From: Actinomycetes bacterium
Lineage (GTDB): Bacteria > Actinomycetota > Actinomycetes > Nanopelagicales > Nanopelagicaceae
Direction: 5' to 3'
Assembly: GCA_025360085.1 (NCBI GenBank)
Contig: JANYCW010000004.1
Location: forward strand, 1-48,011
DNA length: 48,011 nt
Both the position numbers and the translations under genes were made by a program. Shown here in pieces: positions 25,323 to 35,611 of the stretch (its first letter is position 1; each line of letters begins with the position of its first letter). The notes beneath the pieces were generated by a model. That model worked only from the letters and a program-made list of their open reading frames with translations, was not told the DNA's origin and did no database searches.

Positions 25323-25931
25323 TTACTTAAGCAGGATTATCTCGCCGTTTTCTTCTAAGCTTCTAAAGATCGTTAAAGCTCGGCCCGCTGGACCCTGTTG
25401 CACCGCGCCATCTAATCCACTGAACTGCGAGCCATGGCAGGCACAGTTTAAATTGGCACCCATAGATGCAACAGTGCAGCCTTGATGAGTACAAGAACTA
25501 CTCATCACCCTCACATTTCCACTAAATCGACTGATCGCATAGATCTGACTAGTGCCATTATTATCTCGGGCTTGAATTATCTTTACGCTGCCCTCATTAA
25601 TCTGTGAAGACTGCGCAATCACCACTCCCTTCGACGTTGGAGTTGGAGTGGGTGTGGGAGTGGGAGTGGGAGTCGCAGATGCAGTTGGAGTGGGCGTTGG
25701 CGTCGGCGTTGGCGTTGATTTTACAACGGGCACCATCGCACCTTTTTTCCACACCAGGTTTCCTTTAGATTTTATGCAACTGTATGTAAATCCTCGATAC
25801 ACAATTTTTTGGCCAACACGAGTGCACTGCAGCGTTGGTCCTACCGCGGCAATCGCCTCTCCACCAAAGAGGGCGATTAACGAGCCGACAAGAGTTTGTA
25901 AGATGGTGCGACGTTTAAAAAGCTTCGACAT
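25323..25931 (-). CDS. Secreted Rieske [2Fe-2S] protein with Thr-Pro linker
   Basis: Exported electron-transfer protein of 202 residues. The start FKRRTILQTLVGSLIALFGGEAIAA contains an RR pair before a hydrophobic core, consistent with a Tat-type signal. A ~40-residue module follows (GPTLQCTRVGQKIVYRGFTY...NLVWKK). Then comes a low-complexity linker of repeated Thr-Pro (about residues 70-98), then a Rieske domain with CTHQGC and CACHGSQF, which supply two Cys and two His ligands. It overlaps the 3' end of the molybdenum oxidoreductase gene by 17 bp, so the two are translationally coupled. It likely passes electrons to or from that enzyme outside the membrane. A paralogue with the same N-terminal module is at 34.9 kb. 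Confidence 0.88.
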   Translation of the reverse strand: MSKLFKRRTILQTLVGSLIALFGGEAIAAVGPTLQCTRVGQKIVYRGFTYSCIKSKGNLVWKKGAMVPVVKSTPTPTPTPTPTASATPTPTPTPTPTPTSKGVVIAQSSQINEGSVKIIQARDNNGTSQIYAISRFSGNVRVMSSSCTHQGCTVASMGANLNCACHGSQFSGLDGAVQQGPAGRALTIFRSLEENGEIILLK

Positions 25932-27426
25932 TTATTGTGTGCCACCCTTCTGCGCCATTTGGTTCAACGGGAACATAAGCCTCAGGTTGGAGTTGGCCGT
26001 CGCCATCGGTGGCGCGTACTGAGATTGCATATTTTCCTTTACGTGGATCCCAATCAATCCACCACTGTCTCCACGTAGTCTTTGCGATCTCAGGGCCAAG
26101 AGTTGCCTCGCGCCACGGTAGTGTGCCAATCCTTACCTCGACCTTTGAAATTCCGCGAGTGGGTGCCCAAGCAACTCCGGCAATGGCCAAACGTCCAGGT
26201 GGAAGTTGAGAACCATCCATCGGTGTATCTATTCGTGATTGAGTTTTAATCGGGGCGCGCTCGGCCCAACCCCGCGAAATCCAGTAGCCATGCTTTTGAT
26301 CAAAGCGTGTGAGCTCAATGCGCGTTAACCACTTCGTGGCCGAAACATATCCGTAGAGTCCGGGAACAATAATGCGCGCCGGAAAGCCATGGGCCAGCGG
26401 CAGAGCCTCGCCATTCATTCCGATGGCAATCATGGCATCGCGCCCATCAAGGGCGGCCAAAGGAAAACCTGCGGCAAAACCATCATGTGAATAACCCATT
26501 ATTTGATCGGCATCGGAAGTAGGGCCTGCCTCACGAATTAAATCATCTAAGCGAATACCTAACCAGCGCGCATTTCCAACTAAAGGACCACCGACTTCAT
26601 TTGAAACACAAGAGATAGTGTCATCGAGTTCAAAAACAGGTCTGGCACTTAACTCTGCATAAGAAAAAGTGCGGGGATTAGCCACCATGCCAATTATCTC
26701 TAAGCTCCAGTCTTCAATCGAAATATTAGGAACCACTAGCGAAGTATCAATTCGATAGAAATCTGCATTGGGAGTAAAAAGTGGAGATAACCCTGGTGTA
26801 GTTAGCGCTGGATCGACTGGTGGATTGGGTAAAAACTTTAACGGTTTGGGCAGGGCTATCTTAATTCGCTCCACTTGAACACTTGCTTTTTGTGCAAGCA
26901 ACTTGGCGGCACCTGTTGCCGCGATGCTCACCGCTGCGATGATTCCAACTACTTTAAACACATCTCGGCGCGAAAATGTCAGACCAGTTTCATCACTCGA
27001 AACGCCTTGCTGGCTCAACCACCGCAACACAATGAGCGTCACGCCGGCTGAAACTAACGCTGGAATAATCGAAAAAAGATTTGATTGAGCGTCCAATAGC
27101 GCGGCCCAGCTCGCAGCGATTGCCATAATCGCAATGAGTGCGTATGCCAAAGTCCTCTTGCCTGTCATAAAGGCACGGCCTACAATAATTGAAAAAACAA
27201 AAACAACTGCCAGAATCGTTGCAATAAGAAAGAGTTTGTCATTGGTACCAAAGATTTGAATGACTAATTTCTTCGCCCACGAAGGTACATGATCAATGAT
27301 GCGATTTCCGAGTGAGATAACTGGACTCTGCCAATTATTATTAAGAGCGGCGACCAGATGGCCGATTGCCACTCCTGCTACGGTTGCAAGTGGTCCAAAA
27401 ATGCTTCCCAAACTCTTAGTTTTCAT
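25915..27426 (-). CDS. Membrane-anchored molybdopterin oxidoreductase (sulfite oxidase/MsrP-like fold)
   Basis: Protein of 503 residues in two parts. The first ~190 residues contain about five hydrophobic segments (for example LFLIATILAVVFVFSIIVG, TLAYALIAIMAIAASWAALL). The rest is an extracytoplasmic sulfite-oxidase-type domain: VPNISIEDWSLEIIGMVANP, the cofactor-ligand cysteine in DTISCVSNEVGGPLVGNARW, and MNGEALPLAHGFPARIIVPGLYGYVSATKWL. An Ig-like C-terminal dimerisation region follows (RLAIAGVAWAPTRGISKVEVR). The reaction (sulfite, sulfoxide or other) cannot be stated. Coupling to a Rieske protein and nearness to moaA support a working molybdoenzyme. Start codon ATG at 27426. Confidence 0.9.
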   Translation of the reverse strand: MKTKSLGSIFGPLATVAGVAIGHLVAALNNNWQSPVISLGNRIIDHVPSWAKKLVIQIFGTNDKLFLIATILAVVFVFSIIVGRAFMTGKRTLAYALIAIMAIAASWAALLDAQSNLFSIIPALVSAGVTLIVLRWLSQQGVSSDETGLTFSRRDVFKVVGIIAAVSIAATGAAKLLAQKASVQVERIKIALPKPLKFLPNPPVDPALTTPGLSPLFTPNADFYRIDTSLVVPNISIEDWSLEIIGMVANPRTFSYAELSARPVFELDDTISCVSNEVGGPLVGNARWLGIRLDDLIREAGPTSDADQIMGYSHDGFAAGFPLAALDGRDAMIAIGMNGEALPLAHGFPARIIVPGLYGYVSATKWLTRIELTRFDQKHGYWISRGWAERAPIKTQSRIDTPMDGSQLPPGRLAIAGVAWAPTRGISKVEVRIGTLPWREATLGPEIAKTTWRQWWIDWDPRKGKYAISVRATDGDGQLQPEAYVPVEPNGAEGWHTINVEAF

Positions 27427-27473
27427 TATTAATCACGACCCATCTTCTCCATAGGCGCTCTCCTTTGACCCCT

Positions 27474-29399
27474 CTAAAGTCTACCGATAGCCCTAAAAAG
27501 CGCCATATGTTTTCGAGAGTGCAACGCATCCACTGGTACTTCAAGGGATGAAAACTTTGCAATAACCGTCTCGGAAGTCGGATCCACCCAGATATATTGC
27601 CCGTAGATTCCAACGCCATATATCTCTCGCGATTGGCTTGCCGTGATCCACCACTGGTTTTTATATGAGCCACCTGGATGCAAAGCCTGTAAATAATCTA
27701 CTGAAGCTACTTTTGGTGAGGCTCCAGCAAAGGTCTCATCTATCCAAAACTGTGGAATTATCTGATTGTTATTGAAGCAACCAGAGTTCAAAATGAGTTG
27801 GCCAAACAACGCTAAATCCCGAGTTGAAGTCGAAATTCCACCGTTACCCACCGATAGGCCTTGGCAATCAAGAATAATGCTGGCGCGATCATGAGCACCC
27901 ATTGGATTCCATAAATAAGTCGAGACTAACTCTGGATAGGAAATACCCGTTACTTCGGCGATAAGCCAAGCAAGAACATCGGTGTTGGCCGAGCAGTATT
28001 GAAATGCCTTTCCATGCTCGTCTTGTATTCTCAAAGTTTTAAGGAAGGGCCGCAACCCACAATCAGTACCTTCTGGAGCGCTTCGCCAGCCCGCAGCAAT
28101 ATCTAATCGAGTCATCTCAGATTGAGGATCCAAATAATCTTCAGAAAAGTAGATTGAAATGCTCATATCCAAGGCTTGCGAGATCGTGGCTTTTCCAAAT
28201 GCTGAATTAATTAATTCAGGTAAGTAAGAACCGATTGTGCGCTCGACATCAATGACTGCCTTTTGCGCCATGATGGCATACAGCGCACCTAAAATTGACT
28301 TAGATACTGACTGCAGAAGATGCGGCGAATTAACGGTCATTTCGTTGAAATACTTTTCATAAACGAGTACGCCTTTGCGCATAATCACAATGGAATCTGT
28401 ATCTAAATCTGCTAAAAGCTCGGGAAAAGTAAAACGCTGATCGGCCACATCAATTTCGATAGCCTCGATTGCAGAATCGATAGCTACAGGTATAGAAGGC
28501 GGATTTAAAGAAGGCTCAATTATCGCCGTAGGCAAAAATTTCTCCACATTTTGAAATGCCCAACGGTTCAGCGGACCGTTTTGCCAAGAATCCAACGTAA
28601 AACCAACCGGTATTTCTCTCTTGTCCAAACCCACCCGTGAATAAGTGCTAATAAGTTCGCGCGTAAAGACATGCGTTGGGTTAGTAATGACCGATTTAGT
28701 ATCGCCAACTTCTACAAACTTTCCATCTTTCATGACCGCCACTCGATCACTCAAATGTGAAACTACATCTAAATTATGAGAAATGATGAAATATGTTAGA
28801 TCAAAGCCTTGTCGCAACTCCTCTAAAAGATTGAGAATCTGAGCTTGTACCGATAAATCTAAAGACGAAGTCGGTTCATCTAACAAAACAATCTTAGGAT
28901 TTGTAGCCAAGGCCCGTGCAATTGCTACGCGCTGACATTGGCCACCTGATAGTTCGTGTGACTTGCGCCTTAATTGGCTTGCGGCCAAACCAACCCGATC
29001 TAGTAATAATTCGACACGCTTATCAATGGCCACGGTATTTTCACCAGCTAACATCAGCGGTTCAGCAATTGCATCTCGCACACTCATTCGTGGGTTAATT
29101 GACCCAGCAGGATCTTGAAAGACAAAACCTAAATTAGCGCGTAACTCACGGGTTGCTTTCCTGGATTTCCCCGCAAGTGTTTGGCCCAAAATTTCTACCG
29201 TTCCACTTGTTGGTGGCGTAATTCCAAAAGCGCACCTTGCCAACGTACTTTTTCCCGAACCCGACTCACCAACCACACCTAGGATTTCGCCTTTCAAGAG
29301 ATCAATTGATATTGAATCAACGGCCTTAAAACCAGCCTTTAACGCTCTCGTTGTGAAAACTTTTGTGACATTTGAAATCGACATAACCACTTCGCTCAT
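27474..29399 (-). CDS. Fusion: oligopeptide-type ABC ATPase + NylB-like serine hydrolase
   Basis: A continuous 641-residue protein from ATG 29399, which has GGAGG at 8 bases and an ATGA overlap with the upstream ATPase gene. Residues 1-260 are a DppF/OppF-type ABC ATPase: Walker A GESGSGKST (44-52), signature LSGGQ (150-154), Walker B VLLDEP (171-176). Residues about 270-641 are a full beta-lactamase-fold hydrolase of the 6-aminohexanoate-dimer hydrolase (NylB) kind. The nucleophile motif is S364-V-S-K367, the catalytic Tyr is in QYCSAN (Tyr468), and GNGGISTSTRDLALFG lies around 517-533. The junction is open in one frame with no stop or repeat. As the ATPase half is cytoplasmic, the hydrolase would act on newly imported amides or peptides (inference). 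It ends the five-gene importer operon. Confidence 0.93.
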   Translation of the reverse strand: MSEVVMSISNVTKVFTTRALKAGFKAVDSISIDLLKGEILGVVGESGSGKSTLARCAFGITPPTSGTVEILGQTLAGKSRKATRELRANLGFVFQDPAGSINPRMSVRDAIAEPLMLAGENTVAIDKRVELLLDRVGLAASQLRRKSHELSGGQCQRVAIARALATNPKIVLLDEPTSSLDLSVQAQILNLLEELRQGFDLTYFIISHNLDVVSHLSDRVAVMKDGKFVEVGDTKSVITNPTHVFTRELISTYSRVGLDKREIPVGFTLDSWQNGPLNRWAFQNVEKFLPTAIIEPSLNPPSIPVAIDSAIEAIEIDVADQRFTFPELLADLDTDSIVIMRKGVLVYEKYFNEMTVNSPHLLQSVSKSILGALYAIMAQKAVIDVERTIGSYLPELINSAFGKATISQALDMSISIYFSEDYLDPQSEMTRLDIAAGWRSAPEGTDCGLRPFLKTLRIQDEHGKAFQYCSANTDVLAWLIAEVTGISYPELVSTYLWNPMGAHDRASIILDCQGLSVGNGGISTSTRDLALFGQLILNSGCFNNNQIIPQFWIDETFAGASPKVASVDYLQALHPGGSYKNQWWITASQSREIYGVGIYGQYIWVDPTSETVIAKFSSLEVPVDALHSRKHMALFRAIGRL

Positions 29400-30346
29400 T
29401 GCTCTGACCTCCAACAAGCAACACTGTGTTCATCCACTTTTACCATCGGGGGCTCATCGACACACCGGTCAATGCGCATGGGGCAACGCTCCACAAAAGA
29501 ACAGCCAACTAATCCCGTTAATTTCGACGGTACATTTCCGCTAATGGCAACCAAGGTTCCTCGCGCTTTATCAGCACTTGGAATTGCCCCCAATAAACCT
29601 TGTGTATAAGGATGTTTAGGGTTATTCATAACCACGGGTGTGGGGCCAGTTTCAACAATTTTTCCCGCATACACCACTGCAATCTCATCAGATGTTTTAC
29701 CAACTGCACTGACATCATGTGAAATAAAGAGCATCGCAAAGCCTTCAGAGATCTGTAGTTCTTGAATAAGCCTTAAAACTTGGTCACCAACAGTTGCATC
29801 AAGGGCCGTCGTTGGTTCATCGGCGATTAATAACTTAGGACTAGAAAGCAAGGACATCGCAATCATGGCTCTTTGCAACATTCCGCCTGAAAGTTCGTGC
29901 GGGTATGAGGCTAAAACTCGCTTAGTATCGTTCAGGCCAACAGAGGTAAGTCGAGATATCAAAAGTTTTTCAATCTCGCTCCGAGCAATATTGCGTCGTT
30001 TAGCCACCATCTTTAACTGCTCACCTATCGTAAAAATAGGGTTGAATGCCGATTGCGGATTTTGAAAAATCATCACAATCTCTTCGCCCCGAATCCTCGC
30101 CATGTCAACGGCAGTAACACGACCATGGTCGGCAAGTTCAATGTCCCCACGCACAACCGCAGTTGATGGCAAGAGGCCCATAATCGCCATCGCAGTTAAA
30201 GTTTTACCACAGCCAGTTTCGCCAACGATTCCTAAGGTTTTTCCCGCTTTAACTTCTAAATTCATCCCGCGCAACGGAGAGTTCATGATGACGCCATTAA
30301 GGCAGAAATCGACCTCTAATTGTGTAATCTTTAAAACGCTGTTCAT
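29396..30346 (-). CDS. Oligopeptide/dipeptide ABC transporter ATP-binding protein (DppD-type)
   Basis: First of two ATPase subunits, 316 residues. Walker A is GETGCGKT near residues 40-47, the signature is LSGGMLQR near 152-159, and Walker B is LLIADEP. The C-terminal oligopeptide-transporter extension with its cysteine motif is present (GCSFVERCPMRIDRCVDEPP), which in DppD/OppD binds an iron-sulfur cluster. It overlaps the permease upstream by 4 bp and the fusion ATPase downstream by 4 bp, so all are coupled. Together with the ATPase half of the next gene it forms the heterodimeric motor. Confidence 0.95.
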   Translation of the reverse strand: MNSVLKITQLEVDFCLNGVIMNSPLRGMNLEVKAGKTLGIVGETGCGKTLTAMAIMGLLPSTAVVRGDIELADHGRVTAVDMARIRGEEIVMIFQNPQSAFNPIFTIGEQLKMVAKRRNIARSEIEKLLISRLTSVGLNDTKRVLASYPHELSGGMLQRAMIAMSLLSSPKLLIADEPTTALDATVGDQVLRLIQELQISEGFAMLFISHDVSAVGKTSDEIAVVYAGKIVETGPTPVVMNNPKHPYTQGLLGAIPSADKARGTLVAISGNVPSKLTGLVGCSFVERCPMRIDRCVDEPPMVKVDEHSVACWRSEQ

Positions 30347-31203
30347 TGACGCGCGATTCTTGGATCAAAGTGATCGCGCAGTGCATCTCCAATAATGTTG
30401 AAAGATAGAACTGCAAGAAAAATCGCTAAACCTGAAAAAGTCGAAATCCACCATTGATCAAAGATTACGGTGCGCCCTTGTGCAACCATCAGGCCCCAAT
30501 CGGCCGTGGGAGGTTGGGCACCTAATCCGATAAATGCTAGTGACCCTGCGGCTAAAATGACGGTACCTAAATCGGCAGCGATCTGCACTATCAACGGCGT
30601 TGTCACATTGCGCAAAATGTGGCGCAGAATAATGATGCGATCTGGAACCCCCATCGCCGCAGCGATTTCGACATACGGCTTAGATCTAACGATGCTGGCC
30701 TCAACGCGAATAAGTCGTGCATACCAAGGCCACCATGAAATCACTAGAGCGATAAGTGCATTGACTAAACCCGGACCTAAGAAAGTTACCGCGACCAAGG
30801 ATAATAAAAGTGGTGGAAATGAAAGAAAAAGTTCACTCACGCGCATAATGACGTTTTCGATCCAACCGCCCCGATATCCGGCGATCAGACCCAATGTTGT
30901 TCCAATAATTGCGGCAAAGCCGACTACAACGAGGGCGATAAGCAAAGCCGGCCTTGCCCCATAAATAATGCGGCTGAGTAAATCGCGTCCAAGTTCATCG
31001 GTACCTAGAATGTGAGAGGCTCCAGGACCGATAAAACTATTATCTACATTCGTTGCCCCTGCGCCCTCTTTGCTATTGGGCGCAATCCACGGGCCAAAAA
31101 TCGCCGAGAAAATAAATATTGCCATCATCGTCGTTGCCATTGTGGTTAATCGATCTTTAATGAGAAAGGAAAATCCTTTGAACTTTTCTCTCATCGAAGC
31201 CAC
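30343..31203 (-). CDS. Peptide-type ABC transporter permease (DppC/OppC-type)
   Basis: Inner-membrane permease of 286 residues with six predicted helices. The N-terminal OppC-type segment precedes helix 1 (TTMATTMMAIFIFSAIFGPW). GTDELGRDLLSRIIYGAR after it is the family hallmark. The EAA loop is near residues 175-195 (YVEIAAAMGVPDRIIILRHI). The C-terminus ends NIIGDALRDHFDPRIA, also typical. It overlaps the DppB-type gene upstream by 13 bp and the ATPase gene downstream by 4 bp. Confidence 0.95.
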   Translation of the reverse strand: MASMREKFKGFSFLIKDRLTTMATTMMAIFIFSAIFGPWIAPNSKEGAGATNVDNSFIGPGASHILGTDELGRDLLSRIIYGARPALLIALVVVGFAAIIGTTLGLIAGYRGGWIENVIMRVSELFLSFPPLLLSLVAVTFLGPGLVNALIALVISWWPWYARLIRVEASIVRSKPYVEIAAAMGVPDRIIILRHILRNVTTPLIVQIAADLGTVILAAGSLAFIGLGAQPPTADWGLMVAQGRTVIFDQWWISTFSGLAIFLAVLSFNIIGDALRDHFDPRIARQ

Positions 31204-32204
31204 ATCCGCGGATCTATCTTGGCTTGAATCAAATCGACGATAAAATTAATGACTAAATAGCCGACCGCAGCAAGAAGGGTTATTCCCATAATCGCGGGAT
31301 AGTCAATACTCAGTAAGGAATTAACTGCAAAGCCGCCAATACCTGGCCATGCATACACTTGCTCAACAAAGAAAGTTCCAGTAATTAGATACGCCGTAGA
31401 TAGACCCGTAACGGTAACAATCGGTGGCAGAGCGTTTTTAAGGGCTAACTTAAAAAAGATGAGCCGCTCCGATAGGCCGTAAGCTCGAGCGACTTTGATG
31501 TAATCAGAGCTCATTACTTCAAGCAGGTTGGCGCGCGCCATTCGAGACAACAGGCCAAAAGAATATGCCGAAAGAGTCAGTGCGGGCAAGACCATATGGT
31601 GCAGCCCATTTAAAGTCGCCGTAAAGTTTCCAGTAATTATTGAATCAAATAACGGGAAGCCAGTAACTTTGCTTATTGGATGTTCATATTTAAGATCGAT
31701 ATCAAACTGCCCCGTCGCCGGAAACCACGCTAAGCGACCTGCGAATAAAAGCTGCAAAAGTAGGCCTAACCAGAATGCGGGCATTGAGACCCCAGCAATG
31801 GCCAGAATGCGAATCACCGAATCCTGTACTCGTCCTCGATATTTCGCGGCATAAACACCTAAAGCTACGCCAAAAATAAACGCAAAACTCATTGCAAAGA
31901 AAATGAGTTCGATAGTTGAAGGAAGTCGATCAATAATCTCTTGAAGAACGGGTTGCTTAGTTGAAAGAGAGTAACCCCAGTTTCCATGCAAGGTCTGCCA
32001 CACATATTTAATGTATTGAACCGGAATAGGTTGATCTAATCCCAAAGTTATTCGAAGTTTTGCCGCATCCGCCGCCGTTGCTTTTGGCCCAATATAGGCA
32101 AGAGATGGGTCATTTGGAATCACTCTGGCCAGTGTGAAGGTTATAAAGCTTGCCGCAATTAATACCAGCAGGGCAGAAGATAGGCGATTCCATACAACCT
32201 TCAT
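31191..32204 (-). CDS. Peptide-type ABC transporter permease (DppB/OppB-type)
   Basis: First permease of the importer, 337 residues from ATG 32204. AGAGGAG lies 11 bases before this ATG, whereas a longer reading frame would run through the intercistronic hairpin, so I trimmed it. Features are an N-terminal helix (ALLVLIAASFITFTLARVIP), the OppB-type PGDP-like start of the periplasmic loop (RVIPNDPSLAYIG), an EAA motif (YIKVARAYGLSERLIFFKLAL) and a C-terminal VDLIQAKIDPRMWLR, all standard. It follows the binding protein after a strong hairpin. Confidence 0.94.
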   Translation of the reverse strand: MKVVWNRLSSALLVLIAASFITFTLARVIPNDPSLAYIGPKATAADAAKLRITLGLDQPIPVQYIKYVWQTLHGNWGYSLSTKQPVLQEIIDRLPSTIELIFFAMSFAFIFGVALGVYAAKYRGRVQDSVIRILAIAGVSMPAFWLGLLLQLLFAGRLAWFPATGQFDIDLKYEHPISKVTGFPLFDSIITGNFTATLNGLHHMVLPALTLSAYSFGLLSRMARANLLEVMSSDYIKVARAYGLSERLIFFKLALKNALPPIVTVTGLSTAYLITGTFFVEQVYAWPGIGGFAVNSLLSIDYPAIMGITLLAAVGYLVINFIVDLIQAKIDPRMWLR

Positions 32205-32252
32205 AGCGATATCAACTCCTCTTTCAAAATAATTTTTCTCCAAGTAATGATT

Positions 32253-32283
32253 GAGAGCGGGCTGCAAACCACAGCCCGCTCTC
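32253..32283 (-). promoter_or_regulatory. Intercistronic stem-loop between peptide-binding protein and permease genes
   Basis: A perfect 12-bp GC-rich inverted repeat (GAGAGCGGGCTG at 32253-32264, its complement at 32272-32283) with a 7-nt loop lies 20 bases after the binding-protein stop. A moderately T-rich stretch follows on the minus strand, so partial termination is possible. The arrangement matches the hairpin at 1951-1991 in the sugar importer. Confidence 0.75.
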
Positions 32284-32303
32284 CCCTCGTTAACCATATC
32301 TAC

Positions 32304-33887
32304 TTATGAAGAGAGCTTTACTCCCGCAAAGAATGCCGAGAATGGATAGTTAATGTTGTACTTAGGAATTGAGAACTTCTTAGGTAGAACACTCACTTGT
32401 GCTTCGTCATAGAGATAGATGCCGGGTGCTTCTTTATAAAGCATCATCATGGCCTGACTGTAGAGTTTTTGTGCCCCAGCCTTATCTGAACCACTGAGCT
32501 CGATTGCATCATCGACTAATTTGTCATATGCAGCGTTCTTCCAATAGCTCAAGTTAAAGAAAGGCTTAGTGCTGCTATGAAAGAGTGACCATAAATTGTC
32601 TACGCCGGCATCACTATAGGTTGGCCAGTATTTAACAATGAAGAGGTCTTGAGCATTTGCCGGATCTTTCTTTGCCGCCGACCATTGCTGACTAAAGAGA
32701 ATGCCTTGTATATCGGCATCGACTCCAATTGCTGCAAACGCATCTTTCATCAGCGGAACAAAGCGAGCTTCGGCCGAGTTCTCAGATGCATAGGTAACCT
32801 TGATCTTGAGATCTTTTACTCCCGCACTTGCAAGAAGACGCTTAGCCTTTTCAACTTGACGCGAGTATTGAGGAATTGCAGGATCATATGGATAGATTCC
32901 AGCAGGGACCGGTCCTCGGGCCTGTGTTGCATAGCCTTGACCACCAACGGTCGTTATTTCACGGTAGTTCAGGGCATAAGAGAGCGCTTGACGAACTACA
33001 GGATTATTGAGAGGCGCGCGCAAAGTATTGAAGTAACCTACATAGTTAAATGGAGACTTATATTTCACAACGGTGTACTTACTGTTTCGCCTAAAACTAG
33101 TCATGCTTGTAAGTGGAACATTCGTCGCCCAATCAACTTGACCCGAAGTCATCATTTGCTGGGCAGTGATTGCATCTGGAACAATAGAAATGTCAATCGT
33201 TGAGTAAGCAGGCTTAACTGCAGCCCAATGCTTGGCATAGGCCGTTAATACAACGGAGCTTCCGGCCTTATAACTATCGATTGTGTAAGGACCCGAGCCG
33301 CCATCTTTGCCCGATTCGTAATATTTAGAATCGGCGGCGACTGCGACAAGAGTCTTTGGATTAACAATGTATGCACCATACGTAGATGAAGCAATGAGAT
33401 CCATCGGTGCGGCATACGATAAATTAAGTACGACCGTGTCACTTGCAGATGCATCTACACTCTTGAGCGCATCCCAAATAAATCCGGCACCACCTATTTT
33501 CTTCGAGGCATCAAAACTTGCCTTCACGGCCGCTGAGTTAACTGGAGAGCCATCATGGAAAGTTGCTCCAGCCCGTAACTTGAAAGTCCAGGTTTTGCCA
33601 TCTGCCGATGATGTCCACGATGTTGCTAATGCAGGTGAGTATTCAGGCGTTACTCCATCTGGATTTTTCCAGAGTAGTGGTTCGTAAATATTGGTCATAT
33701 AAAAAGCTTCAGTTGAAAAAGATTGAACCGGATCCCATGTTGTAACTGCCGCCGATGTCGATACTTTAAAGACCGACGCTGCCTGTGCCGTGCTTGGAAC
33801 TACAAAGGATGCAATCGCAAATAGGGCAATTGTCGCACCTGCGATTAGGCGAATTCGTTGTGACGAAAACGCGATTTTAATTGACAT
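32304..33887 (-). CDS. Peptide/amide-binding protein of an ABC importer (family 5 SBP)
   Basis: Extracellular binding protein of 527 residues, first in the five-gene operon. The signal peptide is clear (IRLIAGATIALFAIASFVVPSTAQAA, cleavage near residue 36), again without a lipobox Cys. SBP_bac_5 features are TWDPVQSFSTEAFYMTNIYEPLLW, FKLRAGATFHDGSPVNSAAVKASFD, VRQALSYALNYREI and the C-terminal YSQAMMMLYKEAPGIYLYDEAQV. The family binds peptides, nickel, or other amides and glycosides. The attached NylB-like hydrolase in the operon hints at an amide-linked substrate. Divergent from a LysR gene. Confidence 0.94.
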   Translation of the reverse strand: MSIKIAFSSQRIRLIAGATIALFAIASFVVPSTAQAASVFKVSTSAAVTTWDPVQSFSTEAFYMTNIYEPLLWKNPDGVTPEYSPALATSWTSSADGKTWTFKLRAGATFHDGSPVNSAAVKASFDASKKIGGAGFIWDALKSVDASASDTVVLNLSYAAPMDLIASSTYGAYIVNPKTLVAVAADSKYYESGKDGGSGPYTIDSYKAGSSVVLTAYAKHWAAVKPAYSTIDISIVPDAITAQQMMTSGQVDWATNVPLTSMTSFRRNSKYTVVKYKSPFNYVGYFNTLRAPLNNPVVRQALSYALNYREITTVGGQGYATQARGPVPAGIYPYDPAIPQYSRQVEKAKRLLASAGVKDLKIKVTYASENSAEARFVPLMKDAFAAIGVDADIQGILFSQQWSAAKKDPANAQDLFIVKYWPTYSDAGVDNLWSLFHSSTKPFFNLSYWKNAAYDKLVDDAIELSGSDKAGAQKLYSQAMMMLYKEAPGIYLYDEAQVSVLPKKFSIPKYNINYPFSAFFAGVKLSS

Positions 33888-33978
33888 ATCTTTCCTCTTC
33901 TCTTACGTAGATGCAGCGGGCCTAAACGAGGGTTTTCATGCAGGGGCTACAAGTGAGTGAGAGTTTAAAGAGGGGGTC

Positions 33979-34027
33979 TATGCCTGTCTATCATAAAACC
34001 TTGCTTTTACTATGCTTTCTAGGCATA
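33979..34027. promoter_or_regulatory. Split inverted repeat upstream of the LysR gene
   Basis: TATGCCT at 33979-33985 and AGGCATA at 34021-34027 are perfect complements 35 bases apart, in the divergent region between the importer operon and the LysR gene. The right arm ends 8 bases before the LysR start codon. LysR regulators commonly bind two half-sites in such intergenic regions. The assignment is tentative. Confidence 0.4.
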
Positions 34028-34035
34028 CTCACTAG

Positions 34036-34911
34036 ATGGATCTGCGCCTACTTTCATACTTCCTAATGATTTTTGAGTCAGGATCTATTTCGGCGGCCGC
34101 TCGCCAACTTCACATTACTCAGCCATCACTATCTAGGCAGATTCGAAAACTCGAACGAGATTTAGGTGTCGTTCTCTTTTCACATGGCGCAAAAGCAACG
34201 GCTACGGCCGCGGCCATCGCCTTCGTGCCTATCGCCCGAGATTTGATTTCGAGGGCCGCGCAAGCCAGCGCAACCATTAAAACGATGAATCATGCCGAAG
34301 CCATCCGCTTAACAATTGCCGGTCCTCCAACGACCGTTGCCGACGTCATCGCGCCTTACATCGCAGCCGCTGGCGCCGATGGACTACTTGCAAATATCCG
34401 GGAAGTACTTCCTAATGCGGTCTACCGCGAATTAGCTGAGTTCCGCGCTGATTTTGTCGTTGGAAGCTCCCCGCCTCCGGCCCACCTTGAGTATGTTGTC
34501 ATTGGATACTCACCAATCTGGGCTCAGTTACCAGAGGATAAAAAGAATGTAAGTAAAAAAGAGATCTCACTCGCCGAAGTATCGAGTTACTCAATAGCAA
34601 TCGTTGACGATAATCACAACGTTCGCAGAATTTTTGATCAAGCGATTTCCGAAGCAGGGCTCTCCGTCAATATCGCCTTTGAAACTCAATCTACTCAAGC
34701 ATCGCAAGCATTAGCGGCTGCAAATCGCGCCGTCTGCATTAGTTCCGATGATCCACGATTCAATTTACATCCTCTGCTTATAAAAATTGCTGGGAGAAAG
34801 AACCCCTTATCGATCACGTTGTACTGTGCGTGGGATCCCAGCCACTTTGCCGCAGAGCAGATTAAAGCAACGGCACTGGCTTTGCATGAATTTTATAAAT
34901 CCCGAAATTAA
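34036..34911 (+). CDS. LysR-family transcriptional regulator
   Basis: Regulator of 291 residues. The N-terminal winged helix-turn-helix covers residues 1-60 (MDLRLLSYFLMIFESGSISA, then LHITQPSLSRQIRKLERDLG). The remainder is the effector-binding domain with two alternating alpha/beta lobes. LysR genes usually control a divergent neighbour, here the peptide/amide importer with the hydrolase fusion. Its 3' end overlaps the convergent Rieske gene by 4 bp. The C-terminal half is diverged, so the effector cannot be guessed. Confidence 0.93.
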   Translation: MDLRLLSYFLMIFESGSISAAARQLHITQPSLSRQIRKLERDLGVVLFSHGAKATATAAAIAFVPIARDLISRAAQASATIKTMNHAEAIRLTIAGPPTTVADVIAPYIAAAGADGLLANIREVLPNAVYRELAEFRADFVVGSSPPPAHLEYVVIGYSPIWAQLPEDKKNVSKKEISLAEVSSYSIAIVDDNHNVRRIFDQAISEAGLSVNIAFETQSTQASQALAAANRAVCISSDDPRFNLHPLLIKIAGRKNPLSITLYCAWDPSHFAAEQIKATALALHEFYKSRN

Positions 34912-35465
34912 ATCTTAATAAAAATAGATCCAGCCTCTTCACTTGCAACAAATTTTCGTAGCGCCGCTTTTGCCGGGCCTTGAGTAACGGCACCGGTAAG
35001 TGAATTAAAAGCAGATCCATGACAAGGACATCCAAGTACGCCCATTTCGGCAGCGACGACGCACCCTTCATGCGTGCAAATTGCACTCAGGACAATGAGC
35101 TCACTACTAGTTCGGGAAACTACGACAGAAAAATTCGGACCCGAGGCAGGCTTAATTTCTTCAACTTTGGTATCCCCTACTCTGACTTCACCAGATTTAG
35201 TTACAAAAGTTAAGGTTGAGGCGGTAGCACTCGGTGAAGCCGTTGGTGTCGTGCTAGGCGAGCTCGCAACTACTTTTGCTCGCTTTTTCCAAATAAGTTT
35301 GCCCTTTAATTTTACGGCCGTGTAGGTAAATCCTTGAAAAACAATCCTCTGTCCTAGCTTTGTGGCTTTAAGCGTTGGCCCTGCCGCGGCCTGTGCGTTA
35401 GCACCAAAAATCGATAGAAATGCAGCTGGGATAATGGCCAAAAGATTGCGCCTCATGAGTCTCAT
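34908..35465 (-). CDS. Secreted Rieske [2Fe-2S] protein, paralogue of the one at 25.3 kb
   Basis: Exported protein of 185 residues from ATG 35465; a second ATG at 35456 (MRRNLL) is equally plausible, and a TTG further upstream less so. The signal peptide is RRNLLAIIPAAFLSIFGANAQAA. The next ~40 residues (GPTLKATKLGQRIVFQGFTY...KLIWKK) repeat the module found in the other Rieske protein. A short Ser/Thr/Pro linker follows, then the Rieske ligands CTHEGC and CPCHGSAF, both complete. It has no redox enzyme beside it, being convergent with the LysR gene, so its partner is unknown. Confidence 0.86.
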   Translation of the reverse strand: MRLMRRNLLAIIPAAFLSIFGANAQAAAGPTLKATKLGQRIVFQGFTYTAVKLKGKLIWKKRAKVVASSPSTTPTASPSATASTLTFVTKSGEVRVGDTKVEEIKPASGPNFSVVVSRTSSELIVLSAICTHEGCVVAAEMGVLGCPCHGSAFNSLTGAVTQGPAKAALRKFVASEEAGSIFIKI

Positions 35466-35611
35466 GTGGCTAACGGTAACCGCCAAGCCTGGTAACTGTC
35501 ATCTCTATTGAATAACTCTAAGCATTAACTCAGGTGCCTTGGGTCAAATTCCCACCTTTATGCCCAATATTTGCCTCCTACCCACTCCTGGGCAAACGAG
35601 AGGCACAATAC

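Follow-up and report, generated by a model that had tools for sequence, protein, structure and literature searches.

Can the ATPase of a peptide importer and an amide-cleaving enzyme be one protein, and what would such a protein do? The question is raised by a gene in the stretch of 48,011 nucleotides analysed here, which we call the window. A preliminary description had joined a complete DppF-type ATPase to a complete NylB-like hydrolase in one open frame and had suggested that an imported amide is hydrolysed at the cytoplasmic face of the transporter. When positions 27474-29399 were read on the plus strand, many stops were encountered; the minus strand gave a single open frame of 641 codons. 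With the strand corrected in this way (29399-27474), the joined frame is real. In this one chain, Pfam recognised ABC_tran at residues 28-178 (8e-34) and Beta-lactamase, PF00144, at residues 335-627 (2.6e-25). The translation and an alignment of 12 fused proteins placed Walker A (G44-T52), the signature (L150-Q154), Walker B (V171-P176), S364xxK367 and Tyr468 exactly where they had been described; the H-loop residue is H208. The features of the gene and its surroundings are listed in Table 1.

Table 1. Features of the fusion gene and the importer operon in the window.
Feature	Position	Strand	Basis
Fusion gene, OppF/DppF-type ATPase and NylB-like hydrolase, 641 aa	27474..29399	-	ATG at 29399, stop at 27474-27476; Pfam
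Nucleotide-binding domain, residues 1-256, oligo_HPY region truncated	28632..29399	-	Motifs, Pfam, fold match
Linker, about residues 257-266	28602..28631	-	Structure model, comparison of 12 fused proteins
NylB-like hydrolase domain, residues 267-641	27477..28601	-	Match to NylB chains, fold search
Hydrolase residues S364, K367 and Y468	28308-28310; 28299-28301; 27996-27998	-	Alignment to 1wyc
OppD-type ATPase, complete oligo_HPY, four C-terminal cysteines	29396..30346	-	Pfam, cysteine count
DppC/OppC-type permease	30343..31203	-	Domain search
DppB/OppB-type permease; true start near 32204 suggested by homologues	31191..32297	-	Domain search, homologues
Family-5 substrate-binding protein (SBP_bac_5)	32304..33887	-	Domain search
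Divergent LysR-type regulator	34036..34911	+	Domain search

The window comes from an assembly of 61 contigs, which leaves room for a join made by the assembly or by a frameshift. The 296 genomes of the window's family were searched with the hydrolase half. Some match at E <= 0.001 was obtained in 167 of them, mostly to distant stand-alone proteins. In 12 genomes, the window's included, from five of the 17 genera, the match was close and fell within an open frame of some 650 codons. In all 12, the frame held both domains without internal stops and lay directly downstream of OppD, which is cut by the contig end in L040. The junction showed neither the frameshift nor the assembly join that had been named as a possible flaw, and the G+C content, 44%, does not change from the ATPase part across the junction to the hydrolase part. 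Since 12 separate assemblies share the joined frame, an artefact was rejected as having a negligible probability. We conclude that the fusion of a peptide-importer ATPase and a NylB-type hydrolase is confirmed.

The rest of the operon was present wherever the contig was long enough; in G096 and G029 it lies on a second contig. When the operon permease was used as the query (E <= 1e-90), it was found in 14 of the 296 genomes, the 12 with the fusion and two more, G209 and G179. The fusion in G209 runs through the first 75 hydrolase residues and then reaches a stop 56 bases before the contig end. In G179 (L199, G179:C16), the frames of permease B and OppD are broken, either by decay or by sequencing errors. 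Among these 14 genomes, no complete stand-alone ATPase gene was found; the G179 contig ends inside the ATPase.

The mean column identity of the 12 fused proteins is 74%, and the hydrolases of the other copies are 50-69% identical to that of the window. The linker varies from 5 to 18 residues in length and also differs in sequence. In six pairs, the ATPase had a dN/dS of 0.034-0.056 and the hydrolase core (residues 331-641) one of 0.043-0.125; residues 267-330 gave 0.115-0.238, and for the linker the codons were too few for an estimate. In two more pairs, synonymous sites were saturated in each of the main domains. Purifying selection acts on both halves.

The ATPase half is closest by sequence to MtbOppD, MtbDppD and the E. 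coli proteins OppF and DppF, and the same proteins were found in the fold search. Its key residues (Walker A, LSGGQ, Walker B, H-loop) either do not vary or vary only conservatively among the 12 fused proteins, and the operon supplies the two permeases, the OppD and the family-5 binding protein expected around a DppF/OppF-type ATPase. The nucleotide-binding domain is complete, but the ATPase as a whole is not, contrary to its first description. Only positions 1-29 of the 65 in oligo_HPY (PF08352) are matched, at 16.1 bits against a cut-off of 27.1, and the Fe-S half of the C-terminal region is gone. Within residues 226-300, no cysteine was present in the seven fused proteins examined of the 12; one occurs in the linker of L033. 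The ATPases of split operons, in which ATPase and hydrolase are separate genes (see below), likewise match only the first 28-33 positions of oligo_HPY below the cut-off (L065, L068 and L166) and have 0, 1 and 1 cysteines in their last 70 residues, where OppD has four in all 14 copies examined. Since the Fe-S half is missing in the split ATPases too, its loss is not tied to the fusion. PMC12136057 reports that a [4Fe-4S] cluster is bound in the C-terminal region of DppD as well as of DppF in E. coli, that both are needed for assembly and that the second ATPase domain of MtbOppD lacks the Fe-S part. This domain is a precedent, and the missing Fe-S part is therefore not decisive against membership in the DppF/OppF type.

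The hydrolase half was aligned to NylB residues 22 to 369 of 392 with an E value of 9e-76, and NylB-type structures headed its fold search. The N-terminal region of the hydrolase, described as kept, is thus kept from NylB residue 22 on, and the first 21 residues are absent. The fusion joins two domains that are each related to a whole protein. When compared with the NylB-type chain 1wyc (135 of 347 aligned positions identical), Ser112, Lys115, Tyr170, Asp181, Trp186, Tyr215 and Asn266 corresponded to S364, K367, Y422, D433, W438, Y468 and N519. These residues are invariant in all 12 fused copies with the exception of K367, which is kept in 11; a methionine stands in its place in G096, which is either a real loss or a single-base error. 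D433 and N519 are matched to Asp181 and Asn266, but the reference 1wyc is titled 'DN mutant' and has both residues engineered. We take it that natural NylB carries Asp181 and Asn266, and presumably Asp181 binds the amino group of the substrate. PMC7019077 names these two residues as important for the hydrolysis of the 6-aminohexanoate dimer. The closely related stand-alone hydrolases keep the same motifs as the fused copies. With the NylB-type catalytic Ser, Lys and Tyr, the hydrolase half is a predicted amidase.

A predicted model of the fusion had a mean pLDDT of 91.6 and was confident inside both domains, and the confidence fell below 50 only over a stretch at residues 254-261. With a pTM of 0.62, the relative placement of the ATPase and hydrolase domains in the model is unreliable. 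Since the orientation of the domains is not confident, the model lends no support to a position of the hydrolase near the permease exit.

The genes of the operon are ordered binding protein, permease B, permease C, OppD and, as the last one, the fusion, with the divergent LysR gene in front. The end of OppD overlaps the start of the fusion by four bases (ATGA). The LysR gene adjoins the operon in nine of the 12 fused genomes; in the remaining three the contig ends earlier. An Rfam search of positions 27000-35000 gave no RNA family.

For a view beyond the family, 84,980 named species genomes were scanned for the pattern, a procedure that can miss relatives, and 75 loci were obtained. Eleven of these hold the fusion and belong to the 11 fused genomes other than the window's. 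By title they are actinobacterial metagenome assemblies, one of them labelled Streptomyces griseus, which we take as a misnomer; judging from isolate names, genome size and G+C content, the carriers of the fused gene are probably freshwater actinobacteria of the Nanopelagicales (acI). Three of the 75 loci have separate ATPase and hydrolase genes in an orthologous operon: L065, a Cryobacterium MAG, L068 from Leucobacter sp. UBA1945, and L095 from Microbacterium sp. NIBRBAC000506063, where frames are broken. A fourth split operon, L166 in genome G643, came from the class sample. LysR is found near all four, upstream in L065 and L166 and downstream in L068 and L095. The identity to the window's proteins is 54-56% for the binding protein, 52-61% for the permeases and 45-50% for OppD. 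Paralogues in the window's own genome reach 30-40% for the permeases and 34-41% for OppD. As the identities of the split operons exceed those of the paralogues, we consider these operons orthologous; for the ATPase, the margin is small (47-50% for the split copies versus 42-47% for the comparison set). The separate ATPase and hydrolase genes overlap by four bases, ATGA in L068 and GTGA in L065. Since the same operon has two genes in these relatives, two neighbouring genes were joined, and we infer that adjacent, translationally coupled genes were fused in this family by a small change at the overlap.

The hydrolase was matched at E <= 1e-60 in 34 of the 394 genomes of the class sample and in 15 of the 396 of the phylum sample. 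Among 231 loci, 192 had a hydrolase match and 47 open frames contained both domains, and all of these are copies belonging to the 12 fused genomes or the truncated one of G209. Outside the family, the class sample, the phylum sample and the 231 loci yielded no joined frame. The frames outside the family, among the matches listed, were mostly shorter than about 590 codons and too short for a fusion, and the longer ones checked (G373, G716 and G821) had no ATPase. The search for chains with both domains, which had been proposed together with a map of their taxonomy, thus confined the joined frames to the window's family over the family, class and phylum samples and the 231 loci. The concern that homologues in close relatives might always be two genes does not apply within the family, where 12 of 296 genomes have the joined gene, but it does describe the relatives found outside, in which the genes are separate. 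A match to a Paraburkholderia plasmid that spanned both halves was rejected: it consists of two separate frames, and its ATPase is only 30% identical.

In a tree of the hydrolase domain, the 12 fused copies grouped with four stand-alone copies of genus g12 with a support of 100/100. The fused copies alone formed one clade in 17% of the bootstrap trees of the first tree and in 14% of those of the second. The fused hydrolases did not have those of the split operons as their nearest relatives. In the stretches read near the four g12 copies, no ABC gene was found, and the operon permease is absent from their genomes; these copies could form a sister line or go back to a later split. The second tree omits five rows of the first, L098, L103, L111 and L116 (Pseudomonadota) and L178. 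The four Pseudomonadota rows had stood on the side of the fused group on a very long branch. L095, with its broken frames, is in neither tree. Of the two alignments of halves, A3 covers 10 of the 12 fused hydrolase halves, and A4, which was used in no search, covers 8 of the 12 fused ATPase halves and three split ones.

What might be cleaved is suggested by the genes behind two of the split operons. Behind the L065 operon lie, in this order, genes for a PucR-type regulator, a class-III aminotransferase and an aldehyde dehydrogenase. The aminotransferase scored above the cut-off as 4-aminobutyrate transaminase; for the dehydrogenase, succinate-semialdehyde dehydrogenase was the best family but its cut-off was not reached. 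The order recurs after the split operon of G643, with identities to L065 of 69% for the transaminase, 52% for the dehydrogenase and 45% over 103 residues for PucR. Of the fused genomes, one in 12 (G029) has the transaminase adjoining the LysR gene of the operon, compared with two of the four split operons; the flank beyond LysR is present in nine of the 12 and is short to very short in some. The transaminase is also near stand-alone NylB-like genes in G527, G301 and G340. In a search of 119 loci, several of which are copies of one another, it was found in five. None was found in the 48 kb of the window or in the 13 kb of L068 and of L095. With homologues in 252 of the 296 family genomes, the transaminase is a core gene of the family, and the window's genome has it on a different contig, so that its position in G029 may be coincidental. 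The stronger point is the gene order, which is identical in L065 and G643. The same route for 6-aminohexanoate oligomers, with the amidase NylB, the aminotransferase NylD1 and the semialdehyde dehydrogenase NylE1, is described in PMC6752018. The proposal that an imported amide is hydrolysed gains from the conserved catalytic residues and from the genes for GABA transaminase and aldehyde dehydrogenase that follow the operon in two split relatives.

A parallel was found on Agrobacterium plasmids, which have an importer operon where the genes for a serine hydrolase and a double ATPase overlap. On one of the two plasmids viewed, adjoining genes encode an aminotransferase, 26% identical to the L065 enzyme, and a protein annotated as succinate-semialdehyde dehydrogenase. 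With only 21-22% identity, the Agrobacterium hydrolase is a parallel and not an orthologue. On the plasmid L227 (9852-12260), the serine hydrolase of the importer operon lies in a frame of 802 codons annotated as creatininase family protein, and on another, L226, the serine hydrolase and the creatininase are two genes.

Taken together, our results suggest the following mechanism, to which we give a probability of about one half: an omega-aminoacyl (GABA-type) amide is imported, cut at the cytoplasmic face of the transporter by the tethered amidase, and the omega-amino acid is then transaminated. The fused protein would serve a DppABCDF/OppABCDF-like importer as its F-type ATPase subunit and carry, fixed to its C-terminus, a NylB-type serine amidase in the cytoplasm. 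The binding protein would catch the small amide outside the cell, and the DppB/C-like permeases with the OppD/fusion ATPases would carry it inward. The amidase would cut it via Ser364, with Lys367 and Tyr468, while Asp433 might hold the free omega-amino group, as is presumed for Asp181 of NylB. The products would be an omega-amino acid, at best guess GABA, and an amine or amino acid; the omega-amino acid would be transaminated by GABA transaminase and then oxidised. Cleavage at the transporter exit would trap the nutrient and keep the intact substrate low inside. Transport, activity, substrate, hydrolysis at the cytoplasmic face and the benefit of tethering are all what we infer from the genes.

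The two proteins may also work just as when they are separate, the fusion being a neutral or economical joining, in a small genome, of genes that overlapped, and bringing no channelling. The four-base overlap in the split operons L065 and L068 points in this direction, and a linker that is variable and poorly modelled is expected if the geometry is loose. Related hydrolase genes elsewhere are separate and lie beside quite different ABC importers. However, the joined state was kept in 12 complete copies of five genera over the hydrolase divergence given above, though one stop would split it. That it was kept in all 12 shows only that splitting was not favoured, and we regard a join with no functional gain as possible but somewhat doubtful. 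Importer ATPases with a regulatory domain at the C-terminus are well established, as in the MetN type, and the hydrolase domain is placed where E. coli DppF has its Fe-S region. Such a domain could act as a sensor that binds or slowly turns over the substrate or product and inhibits the ATPase, which would agree with the loss of the catalytic lysine in G096. However, all 12 copies have the catalytic Ser, the catalytic Tyr and the matched contact residues unchanged, 11 have the Lys, and closely related stand-alone copies have the same motifs; a regulatory sensor is unlikely.

Still less probable, in our judgement very unlikely, is that the hydrolase replaces the missing Fe-S region structurally and holds the OppD/fusion pair together, with catalysis as a secondary matter. 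This would fit the report in PMC12136057 that loss of either Fe-S site disassembled E. coli DppBCDF, and it would fit a fusion without the four-cysteine set beside an OppD that has it in 14 of 14 copies examined. Yet the Fe-S half was already gone in the three split ATPases examined, and since the second ATPase domain of MtbOppD is also without Fe-S, no replacement is needed.

The importer with a tethered amidase shares its operon parts and ATPase fold with the DppBCDF/OppBCDF importers of E. coli and with M. tuberculosis OppABCD, but its F-type ATPase has an enzyme domain instead of the Fe-S half. MtbOppD joins two ATPase domains together and not an ATPase to an enzyme. With NylB (Arthrobacter KI72 family), the hydrolase shares the fold, the identity to 1wyc and the matched positions 112, 115 and 215 as well as 170, 181 and 266; unlike NylB, it forms the C-terminal part of an importer ATPase, has no counterpart of NylB residues 1-21 and stands in no nylon context. 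The split operons L065, L068, L095 and L166 contain the orthologous binding protein, permeases, OppD, ATPase and hydrolase in the same order with LysR nearby, but here ATPase and hydrolase are separate genes. The logic of amidase, aminotransferase and semialdehyde dehydrogenase in the NylB-NylD1-NylE1 route is repeated in L065 and G643. It differs in that the L065 neighbours score as GABA transaminase and, below the cut-off, as succinate-semialdehyde dehydrogenase, and that a dedicated importer is in the operon.

The families of both halves and the split operon are already known. For the fused architecture, an importer ATPase carrying a catalytic hydrolase, no report was found in the open-access literature, a scope outside which most subscription journals lie. 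If the proposed mechanism is true, freshwater bacteria with small genomes would have uptake and the first catabolic step combined in a single machine. Fused and split operons together offer a test of the role of NylB-type enzymes outside nylon waste and a lead on their natural substrates; a substrate class is predicted (omega-aminoacyl amides), and like the importer and the downstream steps it is specified well enough for assays. Our wider suggestion, a tentative one, is that the on-board amidase would make the uptake of omega-aminoacyl (GABA-type) amides in effect one-way and that the scavenging of natural omega-amino-acid amides would have been the original job of NylB-type hydrolases.

NylB-like genes were also seen in other surroundings. 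In L042 (6239-11921), a 2-isopropylmalate synthase gene of the leuA type stands between two of them, of which one is close to the fused group and the other distant; L043-L045 have an equally long frame, a candidate for the same gene, at this place. In L047, a NylB-like gene adjoins a leuA-type gene and a PotABCD-like importer. L048 (3237-11182) has a PotABCD-like importer, by our own reading, a NylB-like hydrolase, an FAD-dependent oxidoreductase and an arginase-family gene in a row, which looks like another unit of importer and hydrolase with a polyamine or guanidino flavour. In the window itself, the importer region is flanked by two similar small proteins on the minus strand (25323-25931 and 34908-35486), both with Pro/Thr/Ser-rich stretches and, by eye, Rieske-like CxH...CxxH motifs. 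Overlapping the first Rieske-like gene, a minus-strand gene at 25915-27426 encodes a molybdopterin oxidoreductase domain, sulfite-dehydrogenase-like below the cut-off, with a long N-terminal part that by eye is apparently membrane-spanning.
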